Positions 259 to 20,719 of a stretch of 20,870 nucleotides of DNA are shown piece by piece. Source of the DNA: a virus; IMG/VR virus record IMGVR_UViG_3300032304_000235, positions 1 through 20,870 of that record. One strand, written 5' to 3'. Each line of letters begins with the position of its first letter. Within the stretch, counting starts at the first letter, position 1. The translations under genes were made by a program, and so were the position numbers. The notes under the pieces were generated by a model. The model saw only the letters and a list, made by a program, of their open reading frames with translations, searched no databases and was not told where the DNA came from.

Positions 259-387
259 TCACTCACCAGCAACCCACCTAACGGCTTGAGGCAGAGTCAC
301 GCTGTGCATTGAGCCTGGCTTCTGCTGAGAGCTGGTTAGATTATCTGTGAAAGTGTCACTAACTGTTGGAGTTGGAAGATTCACTTG
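259..387 (-). pseudogene. Out-of-frame continuation of the methyltransferase C-terminal ORF
   Basis: Below the G10 tract, the frame one base over from the annotated ORF is open for 42 codons and stops with TGA at 261-259. Its translation contains VNLPTPTVSDTFTDN, SSQQKPGSMHSVTLPQAV and RWVAGE. LPTPT-type segments recur within the methyltransferase ORF itself (LPTPVTTDG, LPTPTTRDYKDG), so this looks like genuine family sequence, not a chance frame. With nine or twelve G in the tract, the ORF would read straight into it. It has no good start of its own; an internal ATG (GSMHSV) exists but lacks a clear Shine-Dalgarno. It is either a real C-terminal extension reached by slippage or after a homopolymer miscall, or a decayed remnant. 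Confidence 0.6.
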
Positions 388-1297
388 CCCCCCCCCCGCG
401 TGGTAGAGCAACACCCGCTAGCAGCACTCTGAGTGCAAGCTCTGCCTGCTGTGGGACTACGCCATTACCACAGGCCTTGAGCTCGTCATTGCGTGACAAG
501 CCAACATCGGTAATCCAACCCTCTGGCAAGCCCATCATCCACTCTGTAAAGGCACTAGAGAGCCTGTGAGCGCCCTCTTTGCCATCTGGCTTGGTCGGAG
601 CTGGAGCAGGTCTGCCAAGGGCTTCTTCCCATCGGCGTATTGCTGGTTCAAACTTGCCCCAGTTGGTTGCAGACACCTCACCGCTGTTGAAAACTGCTCT
701 GGCAACTGTGTCGGTCTGGACTACTCCATCTCGCTCGTGTGGTTCTGTGCCGTCTTTGTAATCACGAGTTGTCGGGGTTGGCAACATTTTATTTCTTCTT
801 CGTGCACCCTTGCCATTTTGCCTAGCCTTATTAGCCGATAGATCAGTTTTTTCCCAGGTTTCTTTTGGCATTTCCAGAATTGCGGTTATGGATTGAAGCT
901 GCAAAGAATTCCTAGTGGCTACCTGATTAGCTACATCAACAGGCTTACCGTCAGTTGTGACTGGGGTAGGCAATACTGTTACTGCTAAAGCGTTCTCTAG
1001 GTTCTGGGGTTGCTTAGGGTCACGAGCGTAGATTTTATTGTTTCTGTCCTCACCATGTTGGGCCCTAGTTGTTGGAAGGGTAGCCAATGATGAAAACTCT
1101 AAATCGGTTATGGGGTGCACCTGCATCGGCAGCTCGAACACCTGTCCATTTAGCGTCATACCCGATGTCGGCCAAGTCTCCGAGAACAGCTCCCAATGCT
1201 CGCAGAGCAGGTTCGCCATCCCCGCTTTCTCCCATACACCACGGGCAGGATTCCAAATGAGGGTTGGTTGCTGTTGCACTAAGTAGTCCTCTGACAT
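359..1297 (-). CDS. C5 cytosine methyltransferase, C-terminal subunit (target recognition region, motifs IX-X)
   Basis: 312 residues from the ATG at 1297; a TTG two codons upstream is less likely. The N-terminal part has LFSETWPTSGMTLNGQVFELP, typical of phage Dcm-like proteins. Low-complexity LPTP segments follow (LPTPVTTDG, LPTPTTRDYKDG), then GKFEPAIRRWEEALGRPAPAP, a motif IX-like HRLSSAFTEWMMGLPEGW and motif X GNGVVPQQAELALR near residues 277-290. It lacks the cofactor loop and catalytic Cys, which are in the upstream ORF, so it should act only together with that subunit. A division of motifs I-VIII versus TRD/IX/X is known for M.AquI (alpha/beta). Its start lies inside the codons for ENVRG of the upstream gene, and the first 78 codons or so are read out of frame over it. 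The C-terminus after the G10 tract (ASESSNSNS) may be an off-frame tail. Confidence 0.8.
   Translation of the reverse strand: MSEDYLVQQQPTLIWNPARGVWEKAGMANLLCEHWELFSETWPTSGMTLNGQVFELPMQVHPITDLEFSSLATLPTTRAQHGEDRNNKIYARDPKQPQNLENALAVTVLPTPVTTDGKPVDVANQVATRNSLQLQSITAILEMPKETWEKTDLSANKARQNGKGARRRNKMLPTPTTRDYKDGTEPHERDGVVQTDTVARAVFNSGEVSATNWGKFEPAIRRWEEALGRPAPAPTKPDGKEGAHRLSSAFTEWMMGLPEGWITDVGLSRNDELKACGNGVVPQQAELALRVLLAGVALPRGGGASESSNSNS
388..397. repeat. Homopolymer tract of ten C (ten G on the coding strand)
   Basis: Ten consecutive C on the plus strand are read as G10 in the methyltransferase C-terminal ORF, where they encode Gly-Gly-Gly plus the first base of an Ala codon. The length decides the frame below: ten ends the protein at 361-359, nine or twelve extends it to 261-259. 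Such tracts are prone both to replication slippage and to sequencing or assembly error. Confidence 0.9.
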
Positions 1298-1631
1298 TTT
1301 CAATTACCACCAATCTAGGTTTGATTTGTTCTATTGCTCTTGCGAACTCGCTCCAAAGTCCGCTTCTTGTTCCATCTTTCATCCCTGCTCGCTTGCCAGC
1401 TAGGGATAAGTCTTGGCAGGGAAACCCGCCTGTGAGGATGTCAACAGGCTCAACTGAGGTAAAGTCAACCTTGCTCACATCGCGGTAGTTTGGCACACCT
1501 GGAAAGTGCTTGTCCAAGATTTTGGAGGGTGCATCTTCCCACTCACAATGCCAAGCAACTTCAGCACCTGTCACATTTATCACAGCTAGGTCTAAGCCAC
1601 CATAGCCACTGAATAAGCTCCCGATTTTCAT
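1065..1631 (-). CDS. C5 cytosine methyltransferase, catalytic subunit (motifs I-VIII)
   Basis: 188 residues. Motif I is SLFSGYGGLDLA (5-16), binding S-adenosylmethionine. Motif IV is GGFPCQDLSLAGKRAG with the catalytic nucleophile Cys72. Motif VI is ENVRG (111-115), and a motif VIII-like APHNRFRVFIIG lies near 172-183. A CPWC pair sits at 129-132. The protein stops soon after motif VIII and so lacks target recognition domain and motifs IX-X, which the next ORF supplies in the +1 frame. The ATG overlaps the stop of the 73-aa gene (ATGA), indicating coupled translation. Likely roles are self-modification against host restriction or epigenetic control; no cognate restriction enzyme is evident. 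The specificity cannot be read from sequence. Confidence 0.88.
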   Translation of the reverse strand: MKIGSLFSGYGGLDLAVINVTGAEVAWHCEWEDAPSKILDKHFPGVPNYRDVSKVDFTSVEPVDILTGGFPCQDLSLAGKRAGMKDGTRSGLWSEFARAIEQIKPRLVVIENVRGLLSATATNPHLESCPWCMGESGDGEPALRALGAVLGDLADIGYDAKWTGVRAADAGAPHNRFRVFIIGYPSNN

Positions 1632-2486: not shown

Positions 2487-2998
2487 TTTGCAGTTTTGCC
2501 CTTAGCTGTGATCGCGTCAAGCACCTGCTTAGGAGCCTGGTTGCGTAGCGCCTCGGCATAGAGCCCTCTGACCTCTGCCTTGGTGTCCATCTCGTCAAGC
2601 TTTGCCATCCAGTCAAGCGTTGCGTGGTCTGCAACGCCCTGAACCTTTTGCATTTCCTCTCGGCTTGCCAAAGTCTTAGGGTCTTTGTTCATTGAGTAGC
2701 CCATAATCATCAAGGCGCGACCAAGGCTGCTGCTCTCTGCATTAGGAAGGGCCGCTACATTGTTTGCACCGCCTGTGCCATCAGTCTCACTTGCATAGCC
2801 AGTTGCTTTGGCGAGGTTGTTTGCCTGATCACCAGAGGATAGGTAAATCGTTGTTTTGACAACCCAAGTCTTAGGGCCTTCTTGGTATGCATCCGAGTTA
2901 GCCCAGTCGGTGACAATCCTGCCGTCAGGATAGTCCTGATGAAACTTTGCCAATCTCTCGGCAACGGTAGCGTAGCTTTCAAGATCAAAGCGTGCCAT
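2483..2998 (-). CDS. Single-strand annealing protein-like (ERF/Sak-type) recombination protein
   Basis: 171 residues. The N-terminus (YATVAERLAKFHQDYPDGRIVT) and the central NAESSSLGRALMIMGYSMN match the pattern of phage recombination proteins with a conserved N-A-E-T/S-S-x-x-G-R-A-L signature. A basic C-terminal tail (ITAKGKTAK) follows a helical segment. These proteins are thought to bind single-stranded DNA and promote annealing beside a phage exonuclease. Here a YqaJ-type exonuclease lies two small genes upstream in the same operon, supporting a Red-like pair. The assignment rests on recalled motif similarity, and a different single-strand DNA binding function is possible. Start ATG 2998 directly follows the preceding stop. 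Confidence 0.6.
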   Translation of the reverse strand: MARFDLESYATVAERLAKFHQDYPDGRIVTDWANSDAYQEGPKTWVVKTTIYLSSGDQANNLAKATGYASETDGTGGANNVAALPNAESSSLGRALMIMGYSMNKDPKTLASREEMQKVQGVADHATLDWMAKLDEMDTKAEVRGLYAEALRNQAPKQVLDAITAKGKTAK

Positions 2999-3298
2999 TT
3001 ATTTTCCCTCTTTCTTTCTGTTGTTATACCACGCTAGAAAGGCTGATGCCTCGTAAGCGATGTCGGGCTCAATGAGCTTGGTGTGAACTCCTAGAATCTC
3101 TAGGTTTGTTGAAACTGCCTCGTTGTAGTGCTGCTGTGACTTGTTAATCTTGTGCTGCTCGTCAAACACCTTTGCCATGTTCGTCAGCAGGGTGAGTAGG
3201 TCTAGTGCTCCATTGCGTAGCTTGTGGAACTCTCGGTGAATCCAGATTACATAACCTGCCAGCAGAGCGACTGCGAGGCTGAGTAGGAGCTCAATCAT
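2999..3298 (-). CDS. Small membrane-anchored protein with helical cytoplasmic part
   Basis: From ATG 3298 the protein has 99 residues: an N-terminal membrane segment (LLLSLAVALLAGYVIWI, about 4-20) then a charged helical region. The longer reading from TTG 3319 or ATG 3310 is possible. ATG 3298 is preferred because it overlaps the upstream stop (ATGATTGA), puts the anchor at the N-terminus and has GGGACAGAGG upstream. Function not recognised. Its place in the recombination operon, between exonuclease and annealing protein, is unusual for a membrane protein. Confidence 0.6.
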   Translation of the reverse strand: MIELLLSLAVALLAGYVIWIHREFHKLRNGALDLLTLLTNMAKVFDEQHKINKSQQHYNEAVSTNLEILGVHTKLIEPDIAYEASAFLAWYNNRKKEGK

Positions 3299-4410: not shown

Positions 4411-4683
4411 ATGAGCCTCAGACATTTAGGAATCTTGACCAGCGATTACTTAGCATTGTTGGCCTCGATTCAGGCTAACGGTAACAAAGTCCCTTGTGAG
4501 TGGCAACCTGAGCTTTGGTTTCCAGAGGACATTCCAGAGCCAAGCAAGCGAGCGGAGGCAACTAAAGAGGCCCTCAAAGGTTGTAAGGCTTGCCCCGTAA
4601 AAGATGAGTGTTTCGACTACGCCCTAGAGTCCAATCAAAAGCATGGCATTTGGGGTGGCTCTTTGCCTTCAGAGCGGATTTGA
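4411..4683 (+). CDS. WhiB-family Fe-S transcription regulator (first copy)
   Basis: 90 residues with the four cluster ligands Cys29, Cys58, Cys61 and Cys67 (C-x28-C-x2-C-x5-C) and the turn GIWGG at 79-83. WPEL-like WQPELWFPED follows the first Cys. The family holds a 4Fe-4S cluster, binds the sigma factor and modulates transcription; phage copies such as WhiBTM4 interfere with host WhiB2 and affect septation and superinfection. The basic tail after GIWGG is very short (SLPSERI), so independent DNA binding is doubtful. A poor AGGG lies ten bases before the ATG; no good -35 is seen. It is divergent from the exonuclease gene (32-bp gap) and its end carries the promoter of the second copy. Confidence 0.9.
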   Translation: MSLRHLGILTSDYLALLASIQANGNKVPCEWQPELWFPEDIPEPSKRAEATKEALKGCKACPVKDECFDYALESNQKHGIWGGSLPSERI

Positions 4684-4709
4684 CATCTCCTGCATTTGTT
4701 AGCTATCTT
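4680..4709 (+). promoter_or_regulatory. Near-consensus promoter for the second whiB, leaderless
   Basis: TTGACA at 4680-4685 is a perfect -35, followed 18 bases later by TATCTT (4704-4709) as -10. Transcription starting about seven bases downstream would begin at 4716, the A of the ATG of the second whiB. Leaderless mRNAs of this kind are frequent in Actinobacteria, and no real Shine-Dalgarno precedes that ATG. The -35 overlaps the last bases of the first whiB. Confidence 0.6.
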
Positions 4710-4715
4710 GCAGGT

Positions 4716-5051
4716 ATGAAAGTTGAACAAGCATTTACAGCCCTAGCAGATGGCATCAAAGAGCATGGAGCGCCTATCTGCCAGCAAACAGATCCTGAGT
4801 ATTGGTTTCCTGAGGCGGGTGGCGAGCGTTATGAGTCACTAGTTGCCAAGAAGTATTGCGGTGAGTGTCCTGTGCAGATGCAATGTGCTCTCTACGCCAT
4901 AACAGCAGGTGAGGATTACGGCATTTGGGGTGGTCTGAATGACCGTCAAAGAGTTGATGTAAGGAACGGCAAGATTACGCTAGAGCAAGCTCTTAGAGTC
5001 TCTGAGGTTAGGTCAGCTAAAGTGCGACTGCCTATTTCACATCGTCAGTAG
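4716..5051 (+). CDS. WhiB-family Fe-S transcription regulator (second copy)
   Basis: 111 residues from ATG 4716. Ligands are Cys22, Cys48, Cys51 and Cys57 (C-x25-C-x2-C-x5-C), with EYWFPEAGG after the first Cys and GIWGG at 69-73. The C-terminal extension (RQRVDVRNGKITLEQALR, then a basic tail) is longer than in the first copy and could contact DNA. The open frame extends upstream to 4608, but that part reads over the first whiB and carries no family sequence; ATG 4716 sits at the predicted start of a leaderless transcript. The last 20 bases overlap tail-to-tail with the left-running membrane gene. Two adjacent copies may control the lytic decision or block superinfection (inference). Confidence 0.9.
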   Translation: MKVEQAFTALADGIKEHGAPICQQTDPEYWFPEAGGERYESLVAKKYCGECPVQMQCALYAITAGEDYGIWGGLNDRQRVDVRNGKITLEQALRVSEVRSAKVRLPISHRQ

Positions 5052-16637: not shown

Positions 16638-17645
16638 TTACATCAAACGGTTGCGCCAAGTGGTTGGCACTTTGTCTGAGTCAATCTCAATCGGCAGATG
16701 GTAGTCAAACTCTCTTGGCCCCTGTTCTCTAATCCACTCAACCAACTCAGTTAGCCCTTGGCCTAGTGAGGTCTTGGTTTCATAGCCCAGCAACTCTCTA
16801 GCCTTGTCTGCCGAGCAGCTTGCTAACTTTACCTCTTGAGGTCTGCCAGTTGTATAAATAGGGTCTAGGTCAAATCCGATTATCTCTGCAAGCTTCTGTG
16901 CAAGCTCGTTGATGGTTATGGTTTCCTCATCAGGGCCGATGTTGATTACCTGGCTAACAGCGACATCCTGAGTGCAAGCGACAAAGGTTGGCTCAACCAC
17001 ATCGCTGACAAAGCTAAAGCAACGCTGCTGTGTGCCGTCACCGTAGATGATTGGTTGCTTACCCTGCAACATTCGGTTGGTCATAATCGAAGCGACATTG
17101 CGGAAAGGGTCATCAAACTTCTGGCGTGGCCCAATGATGTTGTGTGGCACAAGGATTGCCCACTCAAGATTGTGAGTGTCGCAGATGTTCTTGACTAGCT
17201 CTTCAGAGGCTACCTTAGCGATGCCATAGGGGTCTTGAGGCTTTGGGGTGTAGTCCTCTAGGAAAGGGTTCTGCTGAGCGCCGTAGCGGGCCATTGAGGA
17301 AAGGTAGACAAACCGCTTGACCTTGCCGTTCACAGCCGCTACAAGGGCGTTGGTGGTCGCTTGAGTGGTGTTACTGACTACGAGTGACGGGCTGAATACA
17401 GACAAGCCCTCATAAGCGGTGCAAGCAGCGTGAATGAATAGGTCAGCGCCCTCGGTCATTTCCTCTAAAAAGTCGAGATCACGCACAAGGTCTAGCTCTG
17501 CGAACATAATGCCGTCTGGCACATTCTCCAAGTAGCCGCCGAGCAGGTTGTCTATTCCGACAACTTCCCAGCCCTCTGCTAAAAAGCGGTCAGCTAGGTG
17601 AGAGCCCAAGAATCCTGCGACTCCTGTGATTACTACTTTTGCCAT
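16638..17645 (-). CDS. NAD-dependent sugar epimerase/dehydratase (extended SDR)
   Basis: 335 residues. The nucleotide-binding motif TGVAGFLGSH (7-16), Asp32 after GI, and the catalytic Ser117 with Tyr140-x3-Lys144 (SSMARYG, PYGIAK) define an active extended short-chain dehydrogenase such as UDP-glucose 4-epimerase, dTDP-glucose or GDP-mannose dehydratase. FSFVSDVVEPT and VINIGPDEETITINELA are C-terminal substrate-domain marks. The substrate is not determined. It starts 13 bases inside the preceding GT2 gene, and with the two glycosyltransferases likely supplies a nucleotide sugar for decorating virions or for changing the host surface. Confidence 0.85.
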   Translation of the reverse strand: MAKVVITGVAGFLGSHLADRFLAEGWEVVGIDNLLGGYLENVPDGIMFAELDLVRDLDFLEEMTEGADLFIHAACTAYEGLSVFSPSLVVSNTTQATTNALVAAVNGKVKRFVYLSSMARYGAQQNPFLEDYTPKPQDPYGIAKVASEELVKNICDTHNLEWAILVPHNIIGPRQKFDDPFRNVASIMTNRMLQGKQPIIYGDGTQQRCFSFVSDVVEPTFVACTQDVAVSQVINIGPDEETITINELAQKLAEIIGFDLDPIYTTGRPQEVKLASCSADKARELLGYETKTSLGQGLTELVEWIREQGPREFDYHLPIEIDSDKVPTTWRNRLM

Positions 17646-18274
17646 GCGTTATCTCTGATTCTTTGCAGGTTCCAGCGACCTTCAGAAAAGTCTTGAGTGT
17701 TTATCTTGTTGTGATAATAGTCAGAATTTGAACCATAAGATTTTGCATTGCCTCTGGCATACACATCTCCCGCATTTATTGTGCTGGCGTTATCATGGTG
17801 AACATCAACTGAGGCTTTGTAAACCTCAAAGCCAGCGTTAGTGACTCGGCGCTCATAGTCATTATCTTCAAAATAAATTGGATAAATAGACTCATCAAAC
17901 AAACCAACATTTTGCACCAATTCCTCGCCAAGACTAAAAGCCTGGTAGAACGGAAAGGTGTGAGTCAGCGTCAGCCTGTTAGGTGCAGAAGCATCGCTTA
18001 GGGCTTGTAATGCACCAGTTGTAAATTGAGTGTCTGCTGCTGTAAAAGTCCAATAGGGTTCAAATGGAAAACACTTGATACCAAAATTCCAGCTTGCTGC
18101 CACTCCTAGATTGTTTGGCAGATGTAGCACTCTAGCGTCAACCCATGCTGGGACTTTTAGGGTCTCTAGCGTATCCCCATTGTCTAGGACAAGCAGCTCG
18201 AGCGGAATGTCAATGGAGTCAACCATTCGCTGGAGCAGGTCATAGCGATTTAGGACAGGGACAATCAGCTTCAC
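17633..18274 (-). CDS. GT2-family (GT-A fold) glycosyltransferase
   Basis: 213 residues from GTG 18274, overlapping the upstream stop by four bases (GTGA) with AAGGA nine bases before; the frame also opens further up to 18304. Motifs are VPVLNRYDLLQRMVDSI (N-terminal strand and helix), LDNGD, NNLGVAASWNFGI and the nucleotide region TAADTQF, which has A-D-T where a DxD would be expected. ESIYPIYFEDNDYERRVTNAG carries the acidic ED.D..R motif. Compact, without membrane segments. Acceptor and donor are unknown; being encoded within the head genes, capsid or tail glycosylation is a reasonable guess. Confidence 0.82.
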   Translation of the reverse strand: MKLIVPVLNRYDLLQRMVDSIDIPLELLVLDNGDTLETLKVPAWVDARVLHLPNNLGVAASWNFGIKCFPFEPYWTFTAADTQFTTGALQALSDASAPNRLTLTHTFPFYQAFSLGEELVQNVGLFDESIYPIYFEDNDYERRVTNAGFEVYKASVDVHHDNASTINAGDVYARGNAKSYGSNSDYYHNKINTQDFSEGRWNLQRIRDNAWQK

Positions 18275-19482
18275 TTCAAGTGTTCCTTGAGGAATGGAAC
18301 CCACTTGTCAAGCCAAACAGTCTCAGCATCAAACTGCTTAGCGAACTTGCGACTAATCTCGCTGTGTGATCCGTTTGCTTTGGTGTCATCGTAGGCGTTT
18401 TCAAGCGCCTGGGTGATTGAACCAATGTGAGGAATCTTGAACCAAGCAAGCTGAGCCTCATCCCAGAAAAGCTGACCAGTCACTAGGTAGCCATCCTCAG
18501 CTACTAGGTCTTTTGGCCCTGACCAGTTGATTGACACCACGCGCTTGCCACAGGCCTGTGCCTCCATAATAGGTAGCTCATAACCGCCTCCATAAGAAAG
18601 CTGAGCAACAACATCTGCTGCTGTGTAGATTGCAGCAAGTTGCTCGCGCTCATAGCCGTAGCGGTAGTCAATCGGGTTTGGGAATAAGACTGAATCCATT
18701 GGCAAGCCAGCAGCAGAGGCCAAGCGTGGCAGGTGAAAACCGCCGTAGATCCCTGTCGGCTCGGTGTGGATGTAGAGATAAGCGTTTGGGACTTTCTTGC
18801 GGAAAAGCGCAAAGGCCATTAGTAGCTCGGCAAAAGCTTTGCGGTGAATTGACTTGTTGGCTTTGTTGGCGCTGTTGACAACAATCAAGAAGTCATCGTC
18901 TTTGATGTTTAGGAATCGGCGGGTGTGCTGTCCCTCAATCGTCTCTGTTGGCTTAAAGATGTGCGTGTCAATAGCGTGAGGAATGTATGTGGACTCAATG
19001 CCGACTTCTGCCATCTGCTCAACACCAAACGGGGCCATTGCGATTGGTAGGACATTTGGTTTGTCCAGCCACTTCTTCACAGCGGGTGGCATAGATACAT
19101 GGTCAAGTGGAACCCAGCTTGCAATCTTAGGAATCTTGTCGAACTCGGGGTTGGTAAGAATCCAAACATCGGCAAGGGTCATCAGCAGACTTGGCTTTCC
19201 TAGGTGCTGTGAGATGTGGTGAGCGTGAGCAACAGGAGTTGAGTCATTGCTGTATAGATCAAGACCGCGAGCATACTCAGGGATTTTACCAAAAGGGGTT
19301 TCGATTGTGCCGTTTGCACCCTCACGCCCATAGTTGCTGACCGAAGCGACATCTATGCCATGACGCTTCATTCGCGTCACTACTTCCCAAGACTGCTGAC
19401 CATAGCCTGTTGCCTGGTTGATGCCATTGGAATACCAAGTGATTGCACCTTCAATTTGCTGCTGCTTTTTAGGGTTGCCCAT
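18271..19482 (-). CDS. GT-B fold (GT4-like) glycosyltransferase
   Basis: 403 residues. N-terminal domain with GAITWYSNGINQATGYGQQSW, central YIPHAIDTHIFKP and C-terminal donor site GGGYELPIMEAQACGKRVVS with Glu in the E-x7-E region, all standard for GT4 enzymes that use nucleotide-activated sugars. Start ATG 19482 follows GAAAGG by seven bases. It is the first gene after the terminator downstream of the capsid gene, so its transcription depends on read-through or an unrecognised promoter. Works with the GT2 and epimerase in the same overlapping unit. Confidence 0.85.
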   Translation of the reverse strand: MGNPKKQQQIEGAITWYSNGINQATGYGQQSWEVVTRMKRHGIDVASVSNYGREGANGTIETPFGKIPEYARGLDLYSNDSTPVAHAHHISQHLGKPSLLMTLADVWILTNPEFDKIPKIASWVPLDHVSMPPAVKKWLDKPNVLPIAMAPFGVEQMAEVGIESTYIPHAIDTHIFKPTETIEGQHTRRFLNIKDDDFLIVVNSANKANKSIHRKAFAELLMAFALFRKKVPNAYLYIHTEPTGIYGGFHLPRLASAAGLPMDSVLFPNPIDYRYGYEREQLAAIYTAADVVAQLSYGGGYELPIMEAQACGKRVVSINWSGPKDLVAEDGYLVTGQLFWDEAQLAWFKIPHIGSITQALENAYDDTKANGSHSEISRKFAKQFDAETVWLDKWVPFLKEHLK

Positions 19483-19561: not shown

Positions 19562-20719
19562 CTAGGCGGTTGCACCGATGTAGTGCTTGATTGCAGAGGT
19601 GTCCATTAGGTCACCGTCAACGCGAATCTGGAAGCGGTAGTTGATCAATCCTAGGTTGAATTGGTAGTCAGCGGACTGAGCTACATTCAAACCACCTGCA
19701 ACGCGAACGCGGTAGGCATCCCAGTCTCCAGCAAGGATTGACTTTGCAGAAGTTCCAGAAGCCATTGCTGGGTTCTCGATTAGTGGGCGACCAATTAGGG
19801 TGTCAGGAGTTCCAGCAGATAGAGCTGGCTGGAATAGGTATTGACCAGTGGTGTCCTTTAGCTTACGGATGCTAGAGATGGTGGTTGGCGAAGCCATGAA
19901 CGCGAAGTTCGAGGCAGCGCGAACAGCACCGTCTAGCGAGTAGTAAAGGTCGATGATGTTGTCACCAGTAGGTGCACCAGCAGCAGCAGTTCCAGTCACA
20001 CCAAGGGTGGAGGCGGTGACTACACCGTTAGGTGCGTCTGAGCCAGAGCCAGTAGTTAGAGCGGTGTTTACGGTGAACCCGATGGTGTTACCACCTGCGC
20101 GAGCAAGTTCAGCCTCTAGGTTCACGCCCGAGTCACTTAGTAGCTCTTCGGCTACGGCGACAAGAAACGCGTTCTTATAGGCTCCCAATACAACAGAGTT
20201 GAAGGTTGGGTCAGAAGCGGCGATAGTGCCACCTGCTGCAACCTGAGTTGCGGTGCTGTAAGCGGTTAGGGTTGGGAAGCGGATGTCCTCACCAGATGCG
20301 GTAGTTAGCAAGTTGCTAACGCGCAGCATTGGGCCAACCTCACGAGCCTTCTGCCAAACCTGGTCAAAGAAGGTTACAGGAACCAAGTTTGCGTTTGGGG
20401 TCAGGGTGCGGAATTCGTGTGAGCGGACCTCGCCACGAGCGATTGCGCGTAGTAGGTCGTTGTCTGATGCGGATGCACCAGTAGCGATCTCAAAACCGCG
20501 AGCAAGCTCGGCGGCCTTAGCCTCGCGCTCTTCGATCTTGCGAACATTGTCAATAGCAGCTGCACGCTCGTCAAGCTCTGAGTTGATGCGGTCAAACTGA
20601 ACCTGCTCTTCAGCAGTCAGGTCACGCTTCTCAGAAGTTGCCTGGTCAAGTAGAGCCTTTGCAGACTCCCATGCCTTAGCGCGAGCCTCAGCCTGGGCCT
20701 TGATAAAGGTCTCGGACAT
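19562..20719 (-). CDS. Major capsid protein, HK97 fold
   Basis: 385 residues. About the first 100 form a charged helical delta-like domain (LLDQATSEKRDLTAEEQVQFD, then DERAAAIDNVRKIEEREAKA) that should act as internal scaffold and be removed by a protease if one is encoded outside the window. The rest follows the HK97 pattern: VPVTFFDQVWQKAREVGPML (N-arm and spine helix), FPTLTAYSTATQVAAGG with TFNSVVLGAYKNAFLVAVAEEL, DAPNGVVTAS and NFAFMASPTTISSIRKLKDTTG. ATG 20719 follows AAGGAG. Terminators on both sides make it its own transcription segment. Confidence 0.92.
   Translation of the reverse strand: MSETFIKAQAEARAKAWESAKALLDQATSEKRDLTAEEQVQFDRINSELDERAAAIDNVRKIEEREAKAAELARGFEIATGASASDNDLLRAIARGEVRSHEFRTLTPNANLVPVTFFDQVWQKAREVGPMLRVSNLLTTASGEDIRFPTLTAYSTATQVAAGGTIAASDPTFNSVVLGAYKNAFLVAVAEELLSDSGVNLEAELARAGGNTIGFTVNTALTTGSGSDAPNGVVTASTLGVTGTAAAGAPTGDNIIDLYYSLDGAVRAASNFAFMASPTTISSIRKLKDTTGQYLFQPALSAGTPDTLIGRPLIENPAMASGTSAKSILAGDWDAYRVRVAGGLNVAQSADYQFNLGLINYRFQIRVDGDLMDTSAIKHYIGATA

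Follow-up and report, generated by a model that had tools for sequence, protein, structure and literature searches.

A phage C5 cytosine methyltransferase that is probably built from two chains encoded in overlapping reading frames

M.EcoHK31I (target YGGCCR) has its beta gene inside its alpha gene, in another reading frame, and M.AquI, whose two subunits are encoded together, has CYCGRG as its target. In M.AquI, motifs I-VIII and motifs IX-X are on separate chains, and the large subunit includes part of the variable region; in M.EcoHK31I, motifs I-VIII and X are on alpha and motif IX is on the small chain (PMC3404938). Here we describe a pair of genes, which we call alpha and beta, from IMG/VR virus record IMGVR_UViG_3300032304_000235. 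We analysed positions 1 to 20,870 of that record, and this stretch of 20,870 nucleotides (nt) is what we mean by the window. A sequence-only reading of the window had claimed that two methyltransferase subunits overlap there out of frame, and the overlap is real: its second frame scores 95.0 bits, as compared to at most 52.5 bits for synonymous recodings of alpha (see below). We think it highly likely that the overlapping genes encode a C5 cytosine methyltransferase made of two polypeptides.

Alpha matches PF00145 (E = 5.9e-38) over positions 1-162 of the 324 in the profile, which correspond to motifs I-VIII of a C5 cytosine methyltransferase, and it also matches phrog_363. It contains FSGYGG, PCQ with the catalytic Cys, ENV, and RFRVF, and it terminates about 5 residues past motif VIII. 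Beta has no match in Pfam; residues 12-296 of its open reading frame (ORF) match phrog_1008 ("DNA methyltransferase", E = 9.9e-58). With motifs I, IV (PCQ), VI (ENV), and VIII on alpha and motifs IX and X on beta, the two chains hold motifs that are expected of a C5 methyltransferase, and a sequence search of the PDB matched only C5 methyltransferases. The four peptides that the sequence-only reading had quoted are all present in the two frames. We will call the +1 reading of the stretch from ENV to motif VIII of alpha betaN; it forms the N-terminal part of beta. The beta frame is +1 relative to alpha, so the third codon positions of alpha are the second positions of beta, and synonymous constraint on alpha is therefore a sharp test of the other frame.

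Related loci have three layouts. In the split layout, as in the window, alpha has motifs I-VIII, and beta consists of betaN followed by LPTP modules and then motifs IX-X. In the nested layout, most of beta lies within alpha: alpha has motifs I-VIII and, further on, IX-X, and a +1 ORF (mostly about 100-310 amino acids) has betaN and the modules. In the EcoHK31I-like layout, alpha has motifs I-VIII and X, and the +1 ORF has betaN and motif IX, with LPTP modules in most cases. We collected 53 IMG/VR loci via beta, 80 rows via betaN, and additional loci from phage records, plasmid records, and bacterial genomes. After duplicates were removed, there were 69 split loci, 25 nested loci, and 9 others (a class that includes some truncated contigs). 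Homologous pairs keep the overlap: in every locus that let us place both parts, betaN occupies the +1 frame across the ENV-to-motif VIII stretch.

Selection on both frames is visible at the four-fold degenerate sites of alpha. Among 32 split relatives, divergence at these sites drops from 0.62 in the 61 upstream columns to 0.28 in the 37 columns of the overlap (p = 1e-11, computed over columns, with the same sequences as their own control). Divergence falls from alpha residue ~109, where beta begins, and the constraint weakens at residues 169-180 (0.60). Across residues 121-143, where alpha itself is poorly conserved (identity of 0.45), conservation of the +1 frame is no lower (0.50), and this frame retains W-N...R..W-E. 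Furthermore, the +1 frame is free of stop codons in 32/32 split relatives, while recodings stay stop-free in 5% of cases, and indels among the relatives stay in register with both frames. Both conditions that the sequence-only reading had named as refuting it therefore came out in its favour: homologues conserve the N-terminal part of the second ORF, and both frames are constrained, with alpha's four-fold sites slowed only within the overlap. A nucleic-acid element, such as an RNA structure or a regulatory or recombination site, would slow synonymous sites too, and so might be the cause of the constraint instead of +1 coding. But the pattern tracks the +1 codons (no stops, invariant Trp and Gly, the placement of start codons, and in-register indels), which makes such an element very improbable; no search aimed at RNA structure was made.

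Resemblance in the second frame is not proof by itself, because alpha casts a "shadow" in the other frame. The shadow is sizeable: null means are about 20 bits, and up to about 40 bits in close relatives. As a null, we generated synonymous recodings of each gene from the codon usage of its own upstream part, which left the alpha protein unchanged. Given a profile built from nested loci only, the +1 segment of the window scores 95.0 bits, and 500 recodings average 22.7 bits with a maximum of 52.5; 99% of these recodings have a stop in the +1 frame. With the nested-trained profile, 68 of 68 split loci outscore every recoding, and none of the 68 has a stop in +1 codons 9-68, where the mean null probability of a stop is 0.83. 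With a split-trained profile, all 25 nested loci outscore every recoding, and 19 of the 21 distant loci are at 3/300 or below. As a control, we scored 43 PF00145 loci from actinobacterial genomes that were chosen regardless of betaN. The scores of 38 were 5 bits or less, so betaN is the mark of a subfamily and not a generic shadow. The other five scored 14.8-92.8 bits; of the five, L187 and L198 are borderline, and L159 and L148 (a locus obtained via betaN) are one and the same gene.

Could the second frame be a shadow of alpha's conservation after all, with beta beginning past the overlap and the split being a simple frameshift? Scored with the betaN profile, the alpha shadow alone does reach about 20 bits, and at most about 40, and several phage records annotate the beta start near or past the end of alpha. 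But real sequences outscore all recodings (68/68 and 25/25 loci), alpha is constrained at third positions, betaN is absent from 38 of the 43 other C5 methyltransferases, and the start-site statistics (below) also disagree. We rejected the shadow hypothesis on the recoding nulls and the 43 controls, and we consider it extremely unlikely. Judged by sequence evolution, these tests show that the 215-nt overlap is real dual coding, with purifying selection in both frames.

The start site of beta is hidden within alpha. The alpha codons for ENV-R-G-(LL or AY)-S-A spell AGAGGA-N7-GTG in the +1 frame. The codon for the Arg after ENV is AGA or AGG in 75 of 95 loci, as compared to 171 of 478 upstream Arg codons (p = 6.5e-15), and alpha's Ser codon at the GTG site is AGT in 53 of 95 loci, as compared to 33 of 483 upstream. 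All 38 loci with an in-frame stop between ENV and the GTG site have a start codon at that site (37 GTG and 1 ATG). Where there is no start codon at the GTG site, the ATG derived from ENV (GAA-AAT-G) is present in 38 of 42 loci. The association of an upstream stop with a start codon would be hard to get otherwise, despite shared ancestry. For the window, the sequence-only reading had beta start at 1297; there is an ATG there, but GTG 1279 is better supported and is probably the start of beta.

We also considered that programmed ribosomal frameshifting near the end of alpha might fuse alpha and beta, with the upstream part of the beta frame being incidental. The two frames are +1 apart, and the read-through chain models as a methyltransferase-like fold (see below), as this idea would have it. 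However, selection on the +1 frame already acts at alpha residue ~109 and onwards, long before any such shift; a start codon is at a fixed place whenever there is a stop upstream (38/38); the ends of alpha are variable, with no common slippery sequence; and in nested enzymes, a single shift would forfeit motifs IX-X. Because of the variable alpha ends and the selected upstream +1 frame, we rejected the locus as a programmed frameshift gene, and a fusion of this kind seems unlikely. The sequence-only reading had dismissed a simple frameshift mutation by arguing that it would put the two halves end to end. That argument is unsound, because a frameshift also leaves overlapping ORFs. On sequence grounds, it is selection and the conserved start site that settle the choice between dual coding and a simple frameshift.

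Table 1. Features of the putative two-chain methyltransferase locus, in window coordinates
Feature	Position	Strand	Remarks
Alpha subunit gene	1631..1065	minus	188 amino acids; C-terminal end APHNRFRVFIIGYPSNN
Alpha motif VIII, APHNRFRVFIIG	1083..1118	minus	within the overlap
Beta ORF	1303..359	minus	TTG 1303 is the first codon listed; stop at 359
Beta subunit gene	359..1279	minus	GTG 1279 (probable start) to stop; betaN, LPTP modules, motifs IX-X
Dual-coded overlap	1065..1279	minus	215 nt from GTG 1279 (233 nt from ATG 1297)
betaN, VQQQPTLIWNPARGVWEKAG...FSETWPTSGMTLNGQVFELP...	1074..1279	minus	W, W, SG, and G identical in all 27 sequences of an alignment
Three LPTP modules of beta	974-1078, 785-973, 668-784 (span 668..1078)	minus	recurring module families elsewhere
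Motifs IX (SSAFTEWMMGLPEGWIT; also given as FTEWMMGLPEGWIT) and X (GNGVVPQQAELAL)	404..661	minus	beta frame
Shine-Dalgarno-like AGAGGA of beta	1287..1292	minus	spelled by alpha Arg-Gly codons of ENV-R-G
GTG start of beta (probable)	1277..1279	minus	7 nt past AGAGGA; formed by alpha AGT-GCA (Ser-Ala)
Alternative ATG start of beta	1295..1297	minus	formed by alpha GAA-AAT-GTC (ENV)

Past motif X, within the last codons of beta (LPRGGGASESS), window 390-399 is a homopolymer of about 10 C, read as G on the coding strand. This is a possible site of slippage or sequencing error, which would change the C-terminal tail alone.

Over 100 loci have the betaN arrangement, and their range extends from actinophages to Cyanobacteria, Rickettsiales, and Bacteroidota. 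The search of bacterial genomes gave four betaN loci, all of them nested and all from actinobacteria. (A generic betaN query was made by hand and used as a lead only, as its loci are biased towards matches; we compared these loci with the recoding nulls and examined whether the ORF with betaN also held motif IX. The distant loci L144 and L152-L157 were obtained through betaN-like queries.) The EcoHK31I-like layout was found in L152 (a Microcystis phage), L153 (a Stenotrophomonas phage), L154 (a faecal phage), and L157 (a Bacteroides plasmid). There are also two variants: in L155 (Halotia, Cyanobacteria), the +1 ORF also ends in a motif-IX-like stretch, and in L156 (Megaera, Rickettsiales), it is the alpha frame that holds motif IX.

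The +1 ORF of nested loci has neither motif IX nor motif X, so betaN might instead be a separate small regulator or anti-restriction protein that overlaps the methyltransferase by chance and is no part of the enzyme. However, split loci have betaN together with the modules and motifs IX-X on one chain, and EcoHK31I-like loci have motif IX, which is missing from alpha, on the +1 ORF. We consider a separate protein to be distinctly unlikely. Among the loci from the viral, phage, plasmid, and genome searches, there was no stand-alone betaN gene; betaN was always out of frame over a C5 methyltransferase.

In a tree of alpha, the split and nested layouts interchange at least 6 times, and at least 3 of these interchanges are forced by well-supported branches; nearest to the window are L013 and L038. 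The simplest setting for such repeated exchange is one in which both frames are translated at all times and the parts come together. Of the 279 LPTP-type segments that we found, 250 are in the +1 frame. Recurring families of these segments appear at different places, and some appear in either frame; the modules are probably exchangeable target-recognition units.

A few loci have additional peculiarities. In L062 (Mycobacterium phage GigiOuiOui, 1145-1697), alpha is broken between residues 91 and 92 (1145-1417 and 1419-1697) and betaN and beta are intact; the break is either a natural frameshift or a sequence error. L048 is a viral contig with a tandem pair of C5 methyltransferases; a separate +1 betaN-like ORF with LPTP modules (2492-3067) accompanies at least the first of the pair. 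In L052 (1960-3195), betaN and the LPTP modules of the nested +1 ORF are separated by a stretch that looks like a homing-endonuclease-like insert (GLFEGEGYF...), so the hidden frame, too, may be open to mobile elements.

Structure prediction fits the two-chain enzyme in part. When the alpha stop is passed by a +1 step, giving a chain of alpha and beta without betaN, the model is a single methyltransferase-like fold (predicted template modelling score, pTM, of 0.70), with Foldseek matches to M.HhaI (E = 6.6e-12) and M.HaeIII. The model of beta alone has a mean predicted local distance difference test score (pLDDT) of 63 and a pTM of 0.39. Within it, motifs IX-X are well folded (pLDDT mostly 87-93), and betaN has two short beta-hairpins, at residues 7-18 (pLDDT ~79) and 41-48 (~77). 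The weak structural matches of beta alone are all to the C-termini of methyltransferases.

Several observations count against a two-chain enzyme with a dual-coded betaN. In the model of beta, the LPTP modules and parts of betaN have low confidence; searching the PDB with the structure of beta alone gave no significant match (best E = 0.71); and the Foldseek matches of the fused model mostly span the alpha part (about 200 columns). Neither candidate start is present in 4 of 96 loci. And the p-values given above are optimistic, because the relatives share ancestry and are not independent.

We propose that beta is translated through internal initiation on the alpha mRNA, as the conserved start and the Shine-Dalgarno-like site suggest, and that alpha and beta associate to form one active enzyme. 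In this enzyme, beta would supply target recognition, and betaN would either help to dock beta to alpha or form the constant part of the small domain. The predicted role of the enzyme is to protect phage DNA against host restriction. If the recognition part is on a second chain, then a single frameshift can shift motifs IX-X between the chains while preserving the enzyme. This would explain the split, nested, and EcoHK31I-like layouts.

A broader proposal is that betaN is an obligate overprinted domain, which exists only as the +1 reading of the ENV-to-motif VIII stretch and which predates the split of several bacterial phyla. Along with the shuffled modules and the mobile motifs IX-X, it would define a superfamily of two-chain methyltransferases that has so far gone unrecognised, with M.AquI and M.EcoHK31I perhaps as isolated examples. 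For this proposal taken as a whole, we see about an even chance.

The hidden frame is often missed in annotations. Nested beta genes are mostly unannotated in the records (Geralt, Philonius, prophi104-2), and the start of beta is annotated too late in Eesa, Miramae, Float294, and Babsiella. In Gordonia phage Geodirt (L056, 1158-2379), only the +1 gene is annotated as a methyltransferase, and the record has no gene for the alpha frame (1158-2054, motifs I-VIII). We predict that many supposedly "single" phage methylases depend on a second, hidden subunit, in which case cloned alpha genes would look dead.

Long overlaps that are selected in both frames have rarely been proven in bacteria or phages, and here one is proven statistically. 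With over 100 loci, the segment is not confined to this phage. The start signal of beta must also spell a catalytic motif, and this recurs in a common family of phage enzymes. The system offers a direct route into the evolution of overlapping genes and of recognition modules. Overlapping subunits were already known; the conservation, the hidden start, and the breadth appear, provisionally, to be new.

Elsewhere in the window, two adjoining plus-strand ORFs at 4411-5051 have WhiB-like cysteine patterns (CPVKDEC and CPVQMQC), which would fit an actinobacterial host; the rest of that region is on the minus strand. At 16638-19482 (minus strand) are apparent sugar genes (an NAD-dependent epimerase-like ORF and two glycosyltransferase-like ORFs), in a block between a capsid-like ORF (19562-20719) and other structural genes.

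In multispecific phage methyltransferases (SPR, phi3T, H2), motifs VIII and IX are separated by exchangeable recognition domains in tandem. The LPTP modules seem to resemble these domains, but those enzymes are single chains. Arthrobacter phage ArV1 also has two overlapping genes, ORF067a and ORF067b (51241-52050 and 51785-52711), which are annotated as methyltransferases, and we found no analysis of their overlap in the literature that we searched. The actinophage methylases belong to the same family as the window's enzyme, and the fused or nested members, including ShiLan's, match betaN. In the passages that we consulted, this family is described as having inteins, LAGLIDADG elements, and, in ShiLan, an insert with an out-of-frame HNH gene, with no mention of a conserved +1 domain (PMC9957025, PMC11855218; our scope was the literature available without subscription). 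As described there, the HNH gene is a mobile insert in the third frame of a few phages, while betaN is in the +1 frame and is native to the family.

As compared to the published description of M.AquI, the window has the same division of motifs, with I-VIII on alpha and IX-X on beta, but alpha ends so soon after motif VIII that it lacks the part of the variable region that is in M.AquI's large subunit. As compared to the description of M.EcoHK31I, the window also has two chains, with motif IX on the small one, but motif X is on beta as well, and beta reaches about 700 nt beyond alpha instead of lying wholly inside it. A small subunit inside alpha, as in M.EcoHK31I, is found in the relatives L152-L157, and the division of M.EcoHK31I, with motif X on alpha and motif IX on beta, is found in L152, L153, L154, and L157, all of which have betaN.
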